From positions 1 to 6,896 of the forward strand of contig JAUWYR010000066.1 of the NCBI GenBank assembly GCA_030615745.1: a stretch of 6,896 nucleotides of DNA, read 5' to 3'. Origin of the DNA: Candidatus Zixiibacteriota bacterium. Its GTDB lineage: Bacteria > Zixibacteria > MSB-5A5 > SM23-73-2. The notes under the pieces are model-generated. The model saw only the letters and a program-made list of their open reading frames with translations, was not told the origin of the DNA and did no database searches. Shown piece by piece: positions 1-6,896 of this stretch (within the stretch, counting starts at the first letter, position 1; each line of letters opens with the position of its first letter). The position numbers were made by a program, and so were the translations under genes.

Positions 1-854
1 CCGGAGAAGAATTTGAGGTAATTGTTATTGATAATGCCTCCCAAGATGGAAGCGTTGAGATGATAAAAAAGAATTTTCCTCAAGTGAAATTGATCGTCAA
101 CAAGAAGAATTTGGGCTTTGCAAAAGCGTGTAATCAAGGCATAAAGATTGCTCAAGGTAGGTATCTGTTTCTTTTAAACCCTGACACTGAGGTTACTAAT
201 AATATACAGGAGAAAATCATAAATTTTATGGAATCACATCCTGAGGTTGGAGTGGGGGGTTGCTATCTTTATTTCCAAGATAGAAGAATTCAAACATCTT
301 TTTATAAGTTCACTACTTTGGCAAGTCATTTAGGGAGGGCACTGCTTCTTTATTCTTTTTTACCAAAAAATCACTTAACAGCACCTTTTTTTCCCGATTA
401 CTTTAGACGAAGTCAATCAATAGAGCGGGTATGCGGAGGAGCTATGGTAGTGCGCCGAGAAGCTTTTGAGGAGGTTGGTCTTTTTGACGAATCGTTTTTC
501 TTATATTATGAAGATGAGGATCTATGCTACCGGATGAAGCAAGAAGGATGGAAAATCGCTCCAATTCCTAACACCAAGGTCATCCACTATCATAATCGTA
601 GTGGTGGAAAAAATATACGGAAAATCATTTTTTCATCCTATCAAAGTCAGCTTCTATTCTTTAAAAAATTCAATCCTTTTTATAAAGTTTTAATTTTCAG
701 AATCATTCAATTTGTTGGAGTTTCCATCAGGTTTTTTTACTGGTTTTTTAGGTTCTTAACAAATCCAAATGTAAGAGAGTTTTCAGAAAAGTTTTTAGGT
801 TATCTAAAAGTTTTACTCTCAAATTTTCATTATCCAAAATCTTTAATAAAATAA
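1..854 (+). CDS. Glycosyltransferase family 2, rhamnosyltransferase-like (5' partial)
   Basis: This is a GT-A fold glycosyltransferase that probably adds a sugar from a nucleotide-sugar donor to a lipid-linked glycan at the cytoplasmic face of the membrane. The reading frame is open from base 3, so the gene enters from upstream and the ATG at 60 is internal. The nucleotide-binding strand with its DNAS motif is encoded at 30-41. The metal-binding region reads NPDTE at 177-191. Further down come the CGGAMVVRREAFEEVGLFDE block and an EDEDLCYR segment (510-533), both typical of the WbbL/RfbF-like rhamnosyltransferase branch. About 283 residues are visible, and I estimate 30-40 are missing at the N-terminus. 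A hydrophobic, aromatic-rich stretch near 690-760 may anchor it to the membrane. It ends 5 bases before the next glycosyltransferase, which suggests co-transcription. The family is secure. The donor sugar cannot be read from the sequence, so rhamnose is only the commonest assignment for relatives. Confidence 0.93.
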   Translation, partial: GEEFEVIVIDNASQDGSVEMIKKNFPQVKLIVNKKNLGFAKACNQGIKIAQGRYLFLLNPDTEVTNNIQEKIINFMESHPEVGVGGCYLYFQDRRIQTSFYKFTTLASHLGRALLLYSFLPKNHLTAPFFPDYFRRSQSIERVCGGAMVVRREAFEEVGLFDESFFLYYEDEDLCYRMKQEGWKIAPIPNTKVIHYHNRSGGKNIRKIIFSSYQSQLLFFKKFNPFYKVLIFRIIQFVGVSIRFFYWFFRFLTNPNVREFSEKFLGYLKVLLSNFHYPKSLIK

Positions 855-859
855 TTAAT

Positions 860-1999
860 ATGCGCATTGCCATAGATGCAAGAAAGGTGGAATTTCCACT
901 TTCAGGAATAGGAAGATATACTAAAAATCTTATTACTCATCTCTCACTTATTGACAAAGAAAATGATTATGTAATTCTGCAAAATAAAAATTATCCTGTA
1001 GAAATAATTCAAGCACCTAATTTCAAAACTATTTCAGTTAACTACCCTGCCTTCTCTGTAAGATCTTTGTTTTTACTACAAAAAATTTTGTCTCGAGAAA
1101 AAATTGATTTATTGCACTCTCCGTTTATTTTTGCCCCTTTATTAGCAAAATGTAAAATTGTTTTATCTGTGTATGACTTGATACCTTTAAGGTTTTCAAA
1201 AAGCTTTAAAAAAGGCAAGGATTTATTTTGGCTCTTTCGCAAATTAATATTTAGATTGATTTTTCTAATGGTCGTAAAAAGATCTGATAGTATAATTACA
1301 CTTTCTGAGGCTGGTAGCGAAGAATTGAAGAAATTGGATAGATCTCTGAATAAAAAAATAAAAGTAATATATCCCGCCTCAGATGAAATATTTAGAAAAC
1401 TCTCTAATTATAAAAAGGTAGAAGAAGTTAGAGAAAAATTTAATTTTGTTGGAGAAATGATTTTGTATGTCGGGATGATCCGTCCACACAAAAACTTACT
1501 CAGAGTTCTTGAGGCCTTAAAATTATTGATAAATGAGGAAAACAGGCACTGCTTTTTGGTAATAGGAGGTGGTAAAGAAACAGATCTTTTTTTTCTTAAA
1601 GGTATGGCTAATAAATTTGGTATATCGAAACATGTTTTTTTTTCTGGGAGCTTGACTGATTCTGAGGTAGTTGCGCTTATGAATGCCGCTGACGTCTTTG
1701 TCTTCCCTTCCTTAGAAGAAGGCTTTGGGCTTCCTCCTTTAGAGGCAATGGCTTGCGGAACCCCGGTTATTACTTCTAATCTATCTTCCTTACCTGAAGT
1801 TGTTGGGGATGCAGCCTTGTTAGTTAATCCATACGATGTGCAGGAGATTGCTTCTGCTATTAAAAAAGTTCTCACTGATCCCAAATTAAGAGAAAGCCTT
1901 ATAAAGAAGGGATTTGAAAGGGTTAAAAGATTTTCTTGGGAAAAAACAGCAAAAAAAACCCTGCAAATTTACCAGGAGATAGCGGGAATGAAAAGATAA
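860..1999 (+). CDS. Glycosyltransferase family 4 (GT-B), mannosyltransferase-like
   Basis: This is a retaining GT-B glycosyltransferase of 379 residues, a normal full length for the family. The N-terminal domain opens with MRIAIDARK and a glycine-containing SGIGRYTKNL acceptor loop. Next come an HSPF segment and VYDLIPL, where relatives usually have HD at the start. The C-terminal donor-binding domain has LYVGMIRPHKN, then ADVFVFPSLEEGFGLPPLEAMACG. This carries the E-x7-E pair (Glu287 and Glu295) that contacts the nucleotide sugar. The start at 860 fits the family N-terminus exactly. No Shine-Dalgarno sequence is visible before it: upstream is only A/T, and the preceding stop ends 5 bases away, so translation may depend on coupling. 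The gene has very long homopolymers (T9 at 1635-1643, T8 at 1587-1594, A8 at 1951-1958). It most likely adds mannose or a similar sugar during O-antigen or exopolysaccharide assembly; the donor is not determined. Confidence 0.94.
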   Translation: MRIAIDARKVEFPLSGIGRYTKNLITHLSLIDKENDYVILQNKNYPVEIIQAPNFKTISVNYPAFSVRSLFLLQKILSREKIDLLHSPFIFAPLLAKCKIVLSVYDLIPLRFSKSFKKGKDLFWLFRKLIFRLIFLMVVKRSDSIITLSEAGSEELKKLDRSLNKKIKVIYPASDEIFRKLSNYKKVEEVREKFNFVGEMILYVGMIRPHKNLLRVLEALKLLINEENRHCFLVIGGGKETDLFFLKGMANKFGISKHVFFSGSLTDSEVVALMNAADVFVFPSLEEGFGLPPLEAMACGTPVITSNLSSLPEVVGDAALLVNPYDVQEIASAIKKVLTDPKLRESLIKKGFERVKRFSWEKTAKKTLQIYQEIAGMKR

Positions 2000-2028
2000 G
2001 GATAATTAAGTTATACTTATATTGATAT

Positions 2029-2042
2029 TTGATTTAAATCAA
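2029..2042. promoter_or_regulatory. Perfect 14-bp AT-rich palindrome in the gap before the GT9 gene
   Basis: The sequence TTGATTTAAATCAA is its own reverse complement over 14 bases and lies 22 bases before the GT9 start. It sits in the 65-base gap between two otherwise closely packed glycosyltransferase genes. A TATACT hexamer at 2012-2017 and a TTGATA at 2022-2027 are nearby, but I see no well-spaced -35/-10 pair. It could be an operator for a dimeric regulator, or chance in an AT-rich gap. It is too short and too AT-rich to be a terminator. Confidence 0.3.
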
Positions 2043-2064
2043 TACTTCCAGGCGAGAAGAAGTA

Positions 2065-3234
2065 ATGGATCAAGTAGATTTATTTAAAAAGATAGATAAA
2101 ATCATCGGCACACCTTTTTGCTTTTTATTAGGAGTATTGGACAAGCTTTTTTTTAAAAAAGACAATATTTCTCTAAAACCTAAAAGGATATTGGTGATTA
2201 AGCTTATCGCAATAGGTGACCTTGTAGTTGCTCTTCCAACATTACGTGCTTTAAAAAAAAGTTTTCCAGAAAGCTATATCGCTATATTAGTCACTCCGAG
2301 AGTGAGAGAAGTGGTTGAAGGCTGTCCTTATTTGGATAAAATAATTTATTATGATATTCTGGGCAAGGACAAAGGGATAAAAGGATTATTTAAACTTATT
2401 TGGCTACTTCGGAAGCTGAAATTTGATGTTGTTATTGAACTTGAGCAGTATTATCGAATTACCACACTGATTTCATATTTAGCTGGAATTCAAAACCGAA
2501 TAGGATTTGATTTACCTGGTCAGGGAAGGAGATGGTTGTTTACCATAAGGGTGCCCTATCCAATAAATAAGCATGAGGTTGAAGCTTTTTTAGAGATGGT
2601 CAAAATAATTGGTGCAGATACCTCTGAGAAGGAATTAGTCGAGATCTGGGTTTCGGATAAAGATAAAGAATATATAAATAAATTTTTAGATGAAGCTGGG
2701 GTACTCAAAAAGGATTTTTTGGTCGGGATCCATCCGGGGACTGGTCCCAGTGCTGTCTCGCGACGATGGCCACCAGAGAAATTTGGAAAATTAGCAGATT
2801 GGCTGGTTAAGAAATATAAAGCTAAAGTCCTATTTACTGGTGATTTTTTGGAATTGAAATTAATAAATGAATGTATAAAATCAATGACCGTTAAACCTAT
2901 TATAGCGGCGGGAAGGACCAATCTAAAGCAGTTTGCAGAAATTACCAAAAGATGCAAATTGTTCATAGTAGCAGATACAGGACCTTTACATATCGCTGTA
3001 GCTATGAAATCAAAAGTTATCGGACTTTATGGTCCGAACACTCCATCCAAGTGGGGTCCATATGGATCTGGACATCTCACTATTTATAAAACCTTAGATT
3101 GTAGCCCCTGCACCAAACTTTACCTTGGTCAAGTTTCCAGATGTAAAGACCCTATCTGCATGGAGAACATACAAGTTGATGATGTAAAAAAAGCAGTTGA
3201 AAAAATTCTCGAAGGCTCGGCTAATGCAACTTGA
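2065..3234 (+). CDS. Glycosyltransferase family 9, ADP-heptose:LPS heptosyltransferase-like
   Basis: This GT-B enzyme of 389 residues belongs to the heptosyltransferase family (WaaC/WaaF/WaaQ type), which builds the LPS core or related glycans at the inner face of the inner membrane. The first 40 or so residues are an extension with hydrophobic GTPFCFLLGVLD, probably a membrane-associated helix. The catalytic-domain opening follows at residues 42-63, with the family IGD motif; Asp52 aligns with the catalytic Asp. The donor-binding domain begins at HPGTG (223-227), followed by RRWPPEKFGKLADWL. ADTGPLH (303-309) and LYGPNTP then form the ADP-sugar site. Near the C-terminus are four cysteines (346, 349, 360, 365) in the CSPC...C...C pattern seen in many relatives. 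The ATG at 2065 follows a purine-rich GAGAAGAAG, a weak ribosome binding site. The enzyme may transfer heptose or another sugar; the exact substrate is not determined. Confidence 0.93.
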   Translation: MDQVDLFKKIDKIIGTPFCFLLGVLDKLFFKKDNISLKPKRILVIKLIAIGDLVVALPTLRALKKSFPESYIAILVTPRVREVVEGCPYLDKIIYYDILGKDKGIKGLFKLIWLLRKLKFDVVIELEQYYRITTLISYLAGIQNRIGFDLPGQGRRWLFTIRVPYPINKHEVEAFLEMVKIIGADTSEKELVEIWVSDKDKEYINKFLDEAGVLKKDFLVGIHPGTGPSAVSRRWPPEKFGKLADWLVKKYKAKVLFTGDFLELKLINECIKSMTVKPIIAAGRTNLKQFAEITKRCKLFIVADTGPLHIAVAMKSKVIGLYGPNTPSKWGPYGSGHLTIYKTLDCSPCTKLYLGQVSRCKDPICMENIQVDDVKKAVEKILEGSANAT

Positions 3235-3336: not shown

Positions 3337-3386
3337 TCGTCTCTTGAACTTAGTGTGCAAAATAAAAAAATGTTTTGTGGAAGACC

Positions 3387-5756
3387 ATGGGTTATTTTAT
3401 CACTTTTTTTAGTTCTCTAGGAGTGGTACTGGCGGTAATTCCAGTTATCATCAAAATAGCAAATAAATACAATTTCCTCGATTATCCTACCCATCTAAAA
3501 ACTCATCCTAAACCTACTCCCCTTTTGGGTGGTGTGGGTATATTTTTGGGATTTTTTTGTTCTTTAATACTTGGCTCTTTTATCTTTAATTTTGGATGGG
3601 GGAAAGACTTATATGGTTTGCTTTTGGGCGCTTTTATAGTAGTAATCATAGGGTTAATAGATGATAAAAAGGGTCTTTCTCCAAGTATAAAATTCTTTTG
3701 GCAGATTTTGGCAGCACTCTCTTTTATACTTATTAGTGGAAAGACAAATATCCTCACTGGAAGCGGGTGGGATGTTTTGATCCTTTTGTTGTGGATTGTA
3801 GGACTTATGAACGCTTTGAATTTTCTGGATAATATGGATGGACTTTGTAGTGGTATTACTTTTATAGGTTCTCTTGCTTTCTTTGTAGTGGCATTGTTTT
3901 CCAAGCAAAACTTTTCTATTCTTATCAGCTTAGCTCTTTTGGGAGCTTTGCTCGGATTTTTACGATATAATTTCTATCCCGCTAAAATATTTTTAGGGGA
4001 TGCTGGAAGTATGTTCTGCGGTTATATTTTAGCTTGCCTTGGAATTTTTTTCGCAGAAGCAAATCCCTCCCCATCCACTCTCCTTGTCCCGGTTCTTATT
4101 CTATCCTATCCGATTTTTGATATCTCTTTTGTAACATTGGTACGGATAAGAGAAGGAAGAAGAATATATGTTGGGGCACAGGACCACTCCCCTCGCTGTA
4201 TTCTCAGGTTAGGCTTGGATTTTGTCAGGACAGTTTTGTTCATTTATTTAATCTCTTTCCTCTTAGGAGGGGTGGGGCTTTTAGCTTTTTTCTTTTTCGA
4301 TTCTCCCTTCAAGATGCTTCTGGCTGTTTCAGTAGGTTTAACATTAATCATTTTAGGGCTTCACCTGCACCGAAGCTTTGTTAATGTTAAAAAGAAGGTC
4401 CTTTTGATTTTTTTTGACCTTCTCGCTATAAATTCCTCATTTATTCTCTTCTATTTGCTAAAGTTCAAATCAGGGATTTTCAGCTCAGATATTTTCATTC
4501 CGCTGGAGGAGCTTGTGGTTCCGATAATCTGGATTAATCTTTTCTGGCTCAATTTATTTGCCATATTAGGACTTTACGAATTTTTTTCTGACCGCTTTAT
4601 AAAAGAGGAATGGATAAGAATTTTGAAATCAGTAATCCTGGGAATATTAATCTTTGTTGTTTTAAACTTCAGTCCTTTTTATCTCTCTTTTAAATCACTT
4701 TTTTTGTTTTTAATTTATGGTTTAAGCCTTTTTGGATTTTTAGGTTTGGAAAGGAGTTTTTTGATTTTTTTGTGGAGGAGATTATTTTATAGAAAAAAGG
4801 CTTTTAGAAAGGCTTTGGTGGTGGGAACAAAAGAGAATGCTAAAAAGCTTTTTCAAAAGATAAACTCTGATCCTTTTTCAGGATACAAATTGGAGGGATT
4901 TATATCAGAATGGGAAAATCCTGTAAGTTCAGATTTAAAAGTCATAGGTAAAATAGACGATCTTGGTGAGGTCTCGAGGGAAAAACAGGTTGAGGAAATA
5001 TTAATTGCTTTAGAGCCAGATTGGAAAGGATCTTTGGATGAGTTAACAACTAAAGTATCCAATTTGGAGATCGATTTCAGAATAGAATCTAATATTTTGC
5101 ATTTAGCAAAAGGTGAAAGAACAGAGAACTTGAAGACTCCTTATCTTGTTAGGCTTTGCTTAAGTCAGATGAGAACCTGGGAATGGAGTATAAAAAGGTT
5201 TATAGATTTTTTTTCAGCCACGGTTTTTCTTTTAGGCCTTTTGCCTTTATGGTTTTTGATCTGGGCTTTTGTCAAAATTAGCTTGGGTTCTCCTCCCCTG
5301 GTTCAAATAGTTTGTGTTGGAATAAAGAATCGATTTTTTAAACTTTATAAATTCAGAGTCTCTCCGGAGGAGAAAAATTTATCTGAAGGTTTTATCTTTT
5401 CAGAAAAACCAAAAGGTTTTTTAGGAAAGTTTTTAAGAGGGTCGAAAATAGAGATGGTGCCAAAACTTTTGAATGTTTTAAAAGGTGAGATGAGCCTGAT
5501 AGGTCCAAAAGTTAATTCTTTTGAAGCTTTTAAAAAAATCTCATCTGAGATTCCTTTATACCAAAAAAGACTTTTGATTAAACCAGGTATCTTTAATCTG
5601 GCAGAGATAGAGGCAAATATAAAGGATGGTTTGGAAGGTGCAGAAAAAAGGCTTTATTACGATATTTTTTATGAGGAGAACCTCTCACTTTTTTTGGATC
5701 TAAAAATTCTTTTAAAAACTTTGTTTTTACCTATAATAGGAAGAAAAAATGCTTGA
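3387..5756 (+). CDS. Fused phosphoglycosyltransferase: WecA/MraY-like half plus degenerate WbaP-like half
   Basis: This membrane protein of 789 residues probably starts glycan synthesis by moving a sugar-1-phosphate from a UDP-sugar to undecaprenyl phosphate. Residues 1 to about 325 are a polytopic WecA/MraY-type transferase. They carry the Asp-Asp motif (D92, D93), N142-ALNFLDNMDG, the PAKIFLGDAGS block (D205) and DH at 266-267, but the second histidine of the usual HxxH is Arg270. About 330-470 are four further membrane helices. From about 475 comes a Rossmann-like domain (KALVVG). From about 600 comes a bacterial sugar transferase domain with KRFID, YKFR (654-657) and PKLLNVLKGEMSLIGP. That last domain has Glu-Met (689-690) in place of the catalytic Asp-Glu, and PGIFNLAE in place of PGITGWAQ, so it is probably inactive. 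I chose the ATG at 3387 over the in-frame TTG at 3375 because the protein then begins like WecA relatives. A GGAAG at 3379-3383 precedes it with tight spacing. It overlaps serS by 8 bases. Confidence 0.9.
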   Translation: MGYFITFFSSLGVVLAVIPVIIKIANKYNFLDYPTHLKTHPKPTPLLGGVGIFLGFFCSLILGSFIFNFGWGKDLYGLLLGAFIVVIIGLIDDKKGLSPSIKFFWQILAALSFILISGKTNILTGSGWDVLILLLWIVGLMNALNFLDNMDGLCSGITFIGSLAFFVVALFSKQNFSILISLALLGALLGFLRYNFYPAKIFLGDAGSMFCGYILACLGIFFAEANPSPSTLLVPVLILSYPIFDISFVTLVRIREGRRIYVGAQDHSPRCILRLGLDFVRTVLFIYLISFLLGGVGLLAFFFFDSPFKMLLAVSVGLTLIILGLHLHRSFVNVKKKVLLIFFDLLAINSSFILFYLLKFKSGIFSSDIFIPLEELVVPIIWINLFWLNLFAILGLYEFFSDRFIKEEWIRILKSVILGILIFVVLNFSPFYLSFKSLFLFLIYGLSLFGFLGLERSFLIFLWRRLFYRKKAFRKALVVGTKENAKKLFQKINSDPFSGYKLEGFISEWENPVSSDLKVIGKIDDLGEVSREKQVEEILIALEPDWKGSLDELTTKVSNLEIDFRIESNILHLAKGERTENLKTPYLVRLCLSQMRTWEWSIKRFIDFFSATVFLLGLLPLWFLIWAFVKISLGSPPLVQIVCVGIKNRFFKLYKFRVSPEEKNLSEGFIFSEKPKGFLGKFLRGSKIEMVPKLLNVLKGEMSLIGPKVNSFEAFKKISSEIPLYQKRLLIKPGIFNLAEIEANIKDGLEGAEKRLYYDIFYEENLSLFLDLKILLKTLFLPIIGRKNA
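5738..5743 (+). promoter_or_regulatory. Ribosome binding site of serS inside the upstream gene
   Basis: AGGAAG lies 5 bases before the ATG at 5749 and is the clearest Shine-Dalgarno sequence in the window. It is embedded in the last codons of the phosphoglycosyltransferase gene, and it fixes the serS start. Confidence 0.7.
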
Positions 5757-6896
5757 TGTGAAGTTTATTCGAGAAAATCCTGATTTAGTCAAAGAGGCGG
5801 TTAAAAACAAAGGTGAGAAGGTGGATGTTGATGAACTTTTGAGATCGGACAGAAAAAGAAGAGAGCTTATATCTGAAACAGAGGAGTTGAAGCATCAGAA
5901 AAATATTGCTTCAGAGAAGATCGCTGAGTTCAAAAAAAATAAGGAAGATGCCCAGCAAGAGATTGTGAAGATGAGGGAAGTTTCAGAAAAGATCTCTATG
6001 TTGGAGGGAAACCTAAAAGAATTAGACCAAAAACTTAAGTGTCTCCTGCTTCAAGTTCCAAATATTCCTCATCCTTCTGTTCCTAAAGGATTTGATGAGA
6101 GCTTCAATGTGGAGGTAAGAAGTTGGGGAAAACTTCCTGAATTCGATTTCGAGCCTCGTCCGCACTGGGAGATAGGAAAGATTTTGGGAATTTTGGACCT
6201 TCCGCGTGCTGCTAAAATTTCCGGGTCTGGATTTTTGATGTTCGTAGGATTGGGAGCAAAACTTGAGCGTGCCTTAATCAATTTTATGTTAGACCTTCAC
6301 ACGAAAAAACATGGGTATAAGGAGCTATTTCCACCATTTTTAGTAAACCGTCCAAGTATGACCGGAACAGGTCAACTACCCAAACTCGAAGATGATATGT
6401 ATATAGTGGAGAAAGATGATTTTTTCCTGATTCCAACAGCAGAGGTTCCGGTGACCAATATCCATAGAGATGAGATATTAAAAGAGGATGACCTTCCTTT
6501 GTATTATGCCTCTTATACAGCGTGTTTCAGAAGGGAAGCCGGAGCTTATGGAAAGGATACTCGAGGAATAATCCGGGTTCACCAATTTAACAAAGTGGAG
6601 TTAGTGAAATTTGTAAAACCTGAAGATTCATATCAGGAATTGGAGAGTTTGGTGAACGATGCTGAAGAGGTCCTAAAACTTTTGGGGCTACCTTATCGGG
6701 TGAGAAATTTGTGCACAGGAGATCTGAGTTTTGCAGCAGCAAAATGTTACGATATTGAAACCTGGGCTTCTGGATTGGGAAAATATCTTGAGGTTTCCTC
6801 CTGCAGTAACTACGAGGATTTTCAAGCAAGAAGAATCGGAATCAAATATAGAACAAAAAAAGAAAATAAGCTCCGATTTTTACATACCTTAAATGG
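5749..6896 (+). CDS. serS: Seryl-tRNA synthetase (3' partial)
   Basis: This class II aminoacyl-tRNA synthetase charges tRNA-Ser with serine, using ATP, in the cytoplasm. The protein begins MLDVKFIRENPDLVKEAV, the standard SerS N-terminus. A long Lys/Glu-rich antiparallel coiled coil follows, roughly residues 27-105, which in this family grips the long variable arm of tRNA-Ser. The catalytic domain then shows the motif 1 region (LFPPFLVNRPSMTGTGQLPK), the serine-binding TAE at 230-232, and motif 2 (FRREAG...GIIRVHQFNKVE, 260-284). TGDLSFAAAKCYDIE and SSCSNYEDFQARR come next. The window ends at TLNG, the first residues of motif 3, after about 382 residues. Roughly 40-50 residues are missing compared with a usual 420-430. 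The start is set by AGGAAG 5 bases upstream and overlaps the preceding stop by 8 bases. Sampled stretches are richer in GC than the glycosyltransferase genes. No key residue is missing in the visible part. Confidence 0.98.
   Translation, partial: MLDVKFIRENPDLVKEAVKNKGEKVDVDELLRSDRKRRELISETEELKHQKNIASEKIAEFKKNKEDAQQEIVKMREVSEKISMLEGNLKELDQKLKCLLLQVPNIPHPSVPKGFDESFNVEVRSWGKLPEFDFEPRPHWEIGKILGILDLPRAAKISGSGFLMFVGLGAKLERALINFMLDLHTKKHGYKELFPPFLVNRPSMTGTGQLPKLEDDMYIVEKDDFFLIPTAEVPVTNIHRDEILKEDDLPLYYASYTACFRREAGAYGKDTRGIIRVHQFNKVELVKFVKPEDSYQELESLVNDAEEVLKLLGLPYRVRNLCTGDLSFAAAKCYDIETWASGLGKYLEVSSCSNYEDFQARRIGIKYRTKKENKLRFLHTLN

Follow-up and report, generated by a model that had tools for sequence, protein, structure and literature searches.

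What does a phosphoglycosyl transferase (PGT) domain do once it has lost the residues of its own chemistry and is joined to a second, unrelated PGT? Polytopic PGTs (polyPGTs) and monotopic PGTs (monoPGTs) are structurally unrelated solutions to one reaction, and a single open reading frame in the window carries both. By the window we mean the whole stretch of DNA that was analysed, 6,896 nt of contig JAUWYR010000066.1 (GCA_030615745.1), from a genome of the uncultured Zixibacteria (G000) that is 98.6% complete in 74 contigs. The frame encodes 793 aa, with a polyPGT half in front and a complete WbaP-type large monoPGT behind. It opens with a TTG at 3375; an ATG at 3387, which has GGAAG ahead of it, gives 789 aa and is the more likely start as far as the sequence tells. 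Residue numbers here count from the TTG and are 4 higher than those of the original prediction, which counted from the ATG. The fusion is laid out as follows.

3375 to 5756, plus strand: fusion reading frame, polyPGT plus pseudo-monoPGT (ORF call; Pfam and TIGRFAM matches)
3375 to 4379, plus strand: WecA/MraY-type polytopic PGT half, residues 1-335 (PF00953, 4.7e-35; MraY fold, Z 34 over 284 residues)
4398 to 4799, plus strand: four-helix TM bundle of a large monoPGT, residues 342-475 (TIGR03025/TIGR03023 span; model helices)
4800 to 5159, plus strand: PF13727 cytosolic Rossmann-like domain, residues 476-595 (Pfam; predicted model)
5172 to 5753, plus strand: PF02397 monoPGT domain without its dyad, residues 600-793 (Pfam, phmmer, predicted fold, family alignment)

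The Pfam matches fall at residues 81-225 (PF00953, 4.7e-35), 397-570 (PF13727, 9.4e-14) and 607-784 (PF02397, 2.6e-34), and the large-monoPGT models TIGR03025 and TIGR03023 span residues 347 to about 792 with scores below the model cut-offs. A TM bundle and a PF13727 domain precede the PGT domain, which is the architecture of large monoPGTs (Lg-PGTs). In the predicted model of the PF13727 domain, strands 582-585 and 591-595 are candidates for the C-terminal beta-hairpin.

The original prediction held that the catalytic Asp-Glu dyad of the C-terminal domain has become Glu and Met (its residues 689 and 690, 693 and 694 here), that the PRP motif has become PKV and that the PGITG motif has become PGIFNLAE. 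We find each of these substitutions in place, the last against PGITGLAQ. The stretch RGSKIEMVPKLLNVLKGEMS of the fusion aligns on RSLSLDELPQLFNVLKGDMS of PglC without gaps (phmmer, structures 8e37/8g1n, 2.8e-21), which sets the following residues against the active site.

5451 to 5456, plus strand: position of the Asp-Glu dyad, occupied by Glu693 (GAG, 5451-5453) and Met694 (ATG, 5454-5456) (phmmer, family alignment)
5502 to 5513, plus strand: GPKV replacing GPRP, the position of Arg712 being Lys (family alignment)

In an alignment of 22 Zixibacteria fusion C-termini, 31 separate Zixibacteria PGTs and PglC, the dyad Glu is present in 0/22 fusions and the dyad Asp in 1/22; both are intact in 31/31 separate PGTs. 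The loss is thus a property of the family and no local decay, and a search of the 22 fusion C-terminal domains for a relative with an intact dyad found none. The single Asp belongs to a fusion fragment of G010 (L175:20-718, plus strand), in which Glu has become Lys (GLDKVP); this fragment may represent an intermediate or a reversion. A Glu is conserved at the Asp column in 12 of the 22 C-termini. Families f1, f2, f3 and f6 mostly have this Glu, with Met, Leu, Lys, Arg or Tyr as the next residue, and the nine fusions of f12 and f15 have a shortened or wholly rewritten catalytic stretch. The chemistry columns D693, E694, Q697, R712 (PRP) and T740 (PGITG) are gone in nearly all 22 fusions. The separate Zixibacteria PGTs conserve 44 columns at 95% or more, and eight of these are kept in 22/22 fusions: K607, D611, P624, G704, G710, G738, Y766 and S771. 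In PglC, K59, R88 and R111 are the substrate-orienting Lys, the substrate-orienting Arg and the PRP Arg (PMC12802240). The window protein keeps the first two, as K659 and R688, and has Lys712 for the third; across the family the three are kept in 9/22, 8/22 and 1/22. A replacement dyad elsewhere in the domain seems unlikely: the nearby EEN at 767-769 is the YxEN/S motif that active PGTs normally carry. Sequencing error, local decay and chance fusion are ruled out by 20 full-length fusions that lie in separate genomes and form one clade. Taken from the alignments, the C-terminal domain very probably performs no dyad-type chemistry.

It had also been proposed that this domain keeps its fold and its membrane anchor, and the predicted structure agrees. 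A DX12P motif and a helix-stabilising Asp define the monoPGT membrane anchor (PMC12802240), and the fusion has both.

5205 to 5246, plus strand: DX12P re-entrant helix motif, D611 to P624 (22/22 fusions)
5697 to 5699, plus strand: D775, corresponding to the helix-stabilising Asp of the re-entrant anchor (21/22 fusions)

In an AlphaFold2 model of the window protein, built from 19 relatives (mean pLDDT 82), residues 600-789 match the small monoPGT PglC (8e37, 8g1n) with Z 21.4 and 2.4 A over 174/185 residues. Together with the PF02397 match, the anchor residues and this PglC-like fold place the domain among the monoPGTs; unlike PglC, it has no dyad and is part of a longer protein. Residues 336-788 match WbaP with an rmsd of 13 A, the domains fitting singly and in no single rigid arrangement. 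Modelling of the G053 fusion, which has a shortened catalytic stretch and stands for the most eroded type, still gives a match to PglC (Z 16, 2.6 A, 150 residues), and as the two models rest on alignments with common members they are not independent.

In the front half, model residues 1-307 match MraY (Z 34, 284 residues), and the half carries PF00953 and the aspartates of the DD and NxxNxxDxxDG motifs. It shares its predicted fold and all catalytic aspartates with WecA, MraY and DPAGT1; unlike them, the window fusion has no second donor-loop His and bears a C-terminal extension of 450 residues that is a former PGT. The motifs are:

3651 to 3665, plus strand: GLIDD, with the Asp pair D96 and D97 (kept in 21/21 fusions)
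3819 to 3842, plus strand: NFLDNMDG, with D152 and D155 (both kept in 21/21 fusions)
3990 to 4007, plus strand: FLGDAG, with D209 (kept in 20/21 fusions)
4179 to 4199, plus strand: QDHSPRC, donor-recognition loop, with H271 kept and the second His changed to Arg274 (both His in 82/82 separate WecA-like proteins)

The window protein does not have the His motif of the donor loop (HIHH/DHSSHR-like), a departure on which the original prediction was silent, and the pair is altered in 11/20 fusions, with neither His in seven and the first alone in four; both are kept in 9/20. Histidines of this cytosolic loop are implicated in UDP-GlcNAc recognition by WecA, and His279Ser inactivated the E. coli enzyme (PMC5222938). 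Because the loop is altered in these 11 fusions, the window's among them, the WecA half should not simply be assumed to act on UDP-GlcNAc. The change would mean either a different choice of donor or recognition achieved in another way. The G057 fusion (L022) has GSTG for GDAG, losing D209, and NAFDFLD for NAxNFLD; its polyPGT half may be failing too.

The gene content of G000 bears on the same half. The genome has one other PF00953 match, a 404-aa protein that we take to be MraY, and one other PF02397 match, a 145-aa 5'-truncated remnant with an intact DELPQ and no membrane helix. This remnant (L180:3205-3639, minus strand, G000:C43) adjoins a glycosyltransferase gene. Since the one is presumably MraY and the other a remnant, the fusion would be the only evident candidate in G000 for starting a non-peptidoglycan lipid-linked glycan, although a gene could have been missed in a 74-contig assembly. 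We infer that the WecA half is an active enzyme that starts lipid-linked sugar assembly. If instead both halves were degenerate and the whole protein a non-enzymatic membrane factor, the altered donor loop, kept intact in all of the separate WecA-like proteins, and the loss of D209 in G057 would find a ready explanation. We regard this as improbable: the Mg-binding and catalytic aspartates are kept in 21/21 fusions, the WecA half is under strong purifying selection (dN/dS 0.07 in G000/G001, with dS saturated) and the sole other PF00953 gene of the genome is the presumed MraY.

Full-length fusions are present in 20 of 132 Zixibacteria genomes (one genome per species), and three more have pieces at contig edges. 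At E 1e-120, a threshold that 21 Zixibacteria genomes pass (20 full-length copies and one at a contig edge), there was no fusion in 124 Cloacimonadota, 237 Omnitrophota or 7 genomes around an Eisenbacteria record, and none outside Zixibacteria among the best 80 matching contig loci. Set against 30 separate large PGTs, the C-terminal halves fall into a single clade (support 100/100); the WecA halves do likewise when compared with 82 separate WecA-like proteins (SH-aLRT 97, in a quick tree with long branches). Both trees indicate that the fusion had a single origin. Using a simple counting method, we obtained dN/dS values for the PF02397 part of 0.19 (G000/G001), 0.10 (G005/G009) and 0.09 (G053/G027) at dS of 0.9 to 1.6; the closest pairs, with too few changes, were not used. 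These values point to purifying selection on the C-terminal domain. In two genera, this half is even the better conserved. Identity in the WecA half versus the C-terminal half is 54 versus 81% for G005/G009 (L005/L006) and 46 versus 73% for G053/G027 (L016/L019), and the two pairs show change points within the gene near residues 300 and 375. Additionally, G005 groups with G007 in the WecA tree and with G009 in the C-terminal tree. The simplest account of these patterns is that recombination swapped the WecA half in the two genera, with the dead C-terminal half staying in place.

This history weighs against the idea that the C-terminal half is a functionless remnant of an ancestral bifunctional fusion, now decaying. 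Several comparisons do show the domain diverging faster than the WecA half, and the catalytic stretch is progressively lost in f12 and f15. However, the dN/dS of diverged pairs is low, none of the 20 full-length copies is truncated, the anchor residues are invariant, the predicted fold is kept in the most eroded group, and in the two genera just described it is the WecA half that is less well conserved. We therefore consider decay quite unlikely. A fold that is retained, catalytic residues that are lost throughout the family and purifying selection are together what marks a pseudoenzyme, and the joining of a polyPGT to a dyad-less monoPGT in one protein would be a case of a pseudoenzyme inside a PGT fusion, both of them kinds already known.

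The genes around the fusion could suggest another role for the C-terminal half.

1 to 3234, plus strand: three upstream glycosyltransferase genes, GT2 (3-854, 5' end cut), GT4-type (860-1999) and GT9/heptosyltransferase-type (2065-3234) (Pfam)
5749 to 6896, plus strand: serS, cut at the contig end, its start overlapping the fusion stop by 8 bases (ORF and Pfam)

The loci of relatives hold more glycosyltransferases, NAD-dependent sugar epimerases, a polysaccharide deacetylase, a HAD phosphatase and an O-antigen ligase/polymerase-type protein. Directly downstream of the fusion, serS is found in 18/19 loci (the exception is G007). The half might do no more than recruit downstream glycosyltransferases or other partners, as a platform that leaves WecA chemistry unaffected; the fusion ends glycosyltransferase clusters, and the large PGT EpsZ of Myxococcus has a partner protein that acts on it (PMC12802240). 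Across families, however, serS is the sole constant neighbour and no glycosyltransferase is constantly next to the fusion, and we hold a platform to be an unlikely explanation.

Least of all do we expect the monoPGT domain to be an enzyme still, with Glu693 as nucleophile and a metal ligand supplied by another residue or by the WecA half: there is a Glu at the nucleophile column in the 12 fusions, over four families, and the window protein keeps K659 and R688, but the residue that follows this Glu is mostly basic, the PRP Arg is lost, and the domain persists in nine members that do not have even the Glu.

Based on these data, we propose that a working WecA-type half is joined to a monoPGT half turned pseudoenzyme, which serves dimerisation, sensing of uridine nucleotides or both, and we think this reading of the protein probable, if well short of certain. 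In the proposed mechanism, the WecA-type half would transfer a sugar-1-phosphate to polyprenyl phosphate, the initiating step. The monoPGT moiety, keeping its re-entrant anchor, TM bundle and PF13727 domain and without covalent-intermediate chemistry, would most likely hold the WecA half as a dimer at the cytoplasmic leaflet and couple it to the level of uridine nucleotides. UMP is a product of both polyPGTs and monoPGTs, and product feedback by UMP is possible. WbaP dimerises mostly through its PF13727 domain, which also responds to uridine nucleotides, and the enzyme is inhibited by UMP (PMC10942596). Because of this role in WbaP, together with the purifying selection, the single origin and the exchange of WecA halves against a constant C-terminal half, it seems to us on balance likely that the C-terminal half scaffolds or regulates the WecA half, in line with the original prediction of a sensor, scaffold or regulatory partner. 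A universal role in nucleotide sensing is less easily supported, as f12 and f15 show erosion of the PF13727 Rossmann glycine motif and the domain evolves fast between close relatives. The Glu conserved at the nucleophile column could also point to a residual role for a carboxylate. A bolder version, which we think improbable, is that the two PGT superfamilies have merged into a two-lobed enzyme, in which the polytopic half, with its eroded donor loop, would do the chemistry as an exchangeable cassette and the dead monotopic half would bind nucleotide-sugar or UMP and so set donor choice or rate.

The scaffold or regulator that we favor has partial counterparts among known systems. With WbaP and other Lg-PGTs (TIGR03025, PF13727 plus PF02397; 8t53), the fusion shares the order of TM bundle, PF13727 and PF02397, the DX12P motif and the helix-stabilising Asp; unlike them, it is without the Asp-Glu dyad, the PRP Arg and the PGITG Thr and sits behind a polyPGT. 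In Bi-PGTs, a monoPGT is likewise fused to another functional domain, but there the monoPGT is catalytically complete, whereas in the fusion it has no dyad and is paired with a PGT from the other superfamily. In the EpsZ-EpsW system of Myxococcus, an initiating PGT is controlled via PF13727 and the dimer state (PMC12802240), as we propose for the fusion, although EpsZ itself is catalytically complete and its response regulator is a separate protein. A separate large PGT of G044 (L115:415-2919, minus strand) combines an intact dyad with a response-regulator receiver domain at its C-terminus, an arrangement that parallels the EpsW-EpsZ pair in cis. In the literature searched, mostly non-subscription and with the monoPGT-fusion survey of O'Toole et al. 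2021 outside its scope, we found no fusion of a polyPGT with a dyad-less monoPGT, no pseudoenzyme PGT and no WecA-WbaP fusion.

If the proposed reading is true, Zixibacteria hold a long-lived natural fusion with a dyad-less module, and in large monoPGTs the accessory parts and the fold would have a function that can be separated from chemistry. The role of the large-monoPGT TM bundle and PF13727 domain would then become directly testable in the fusion.
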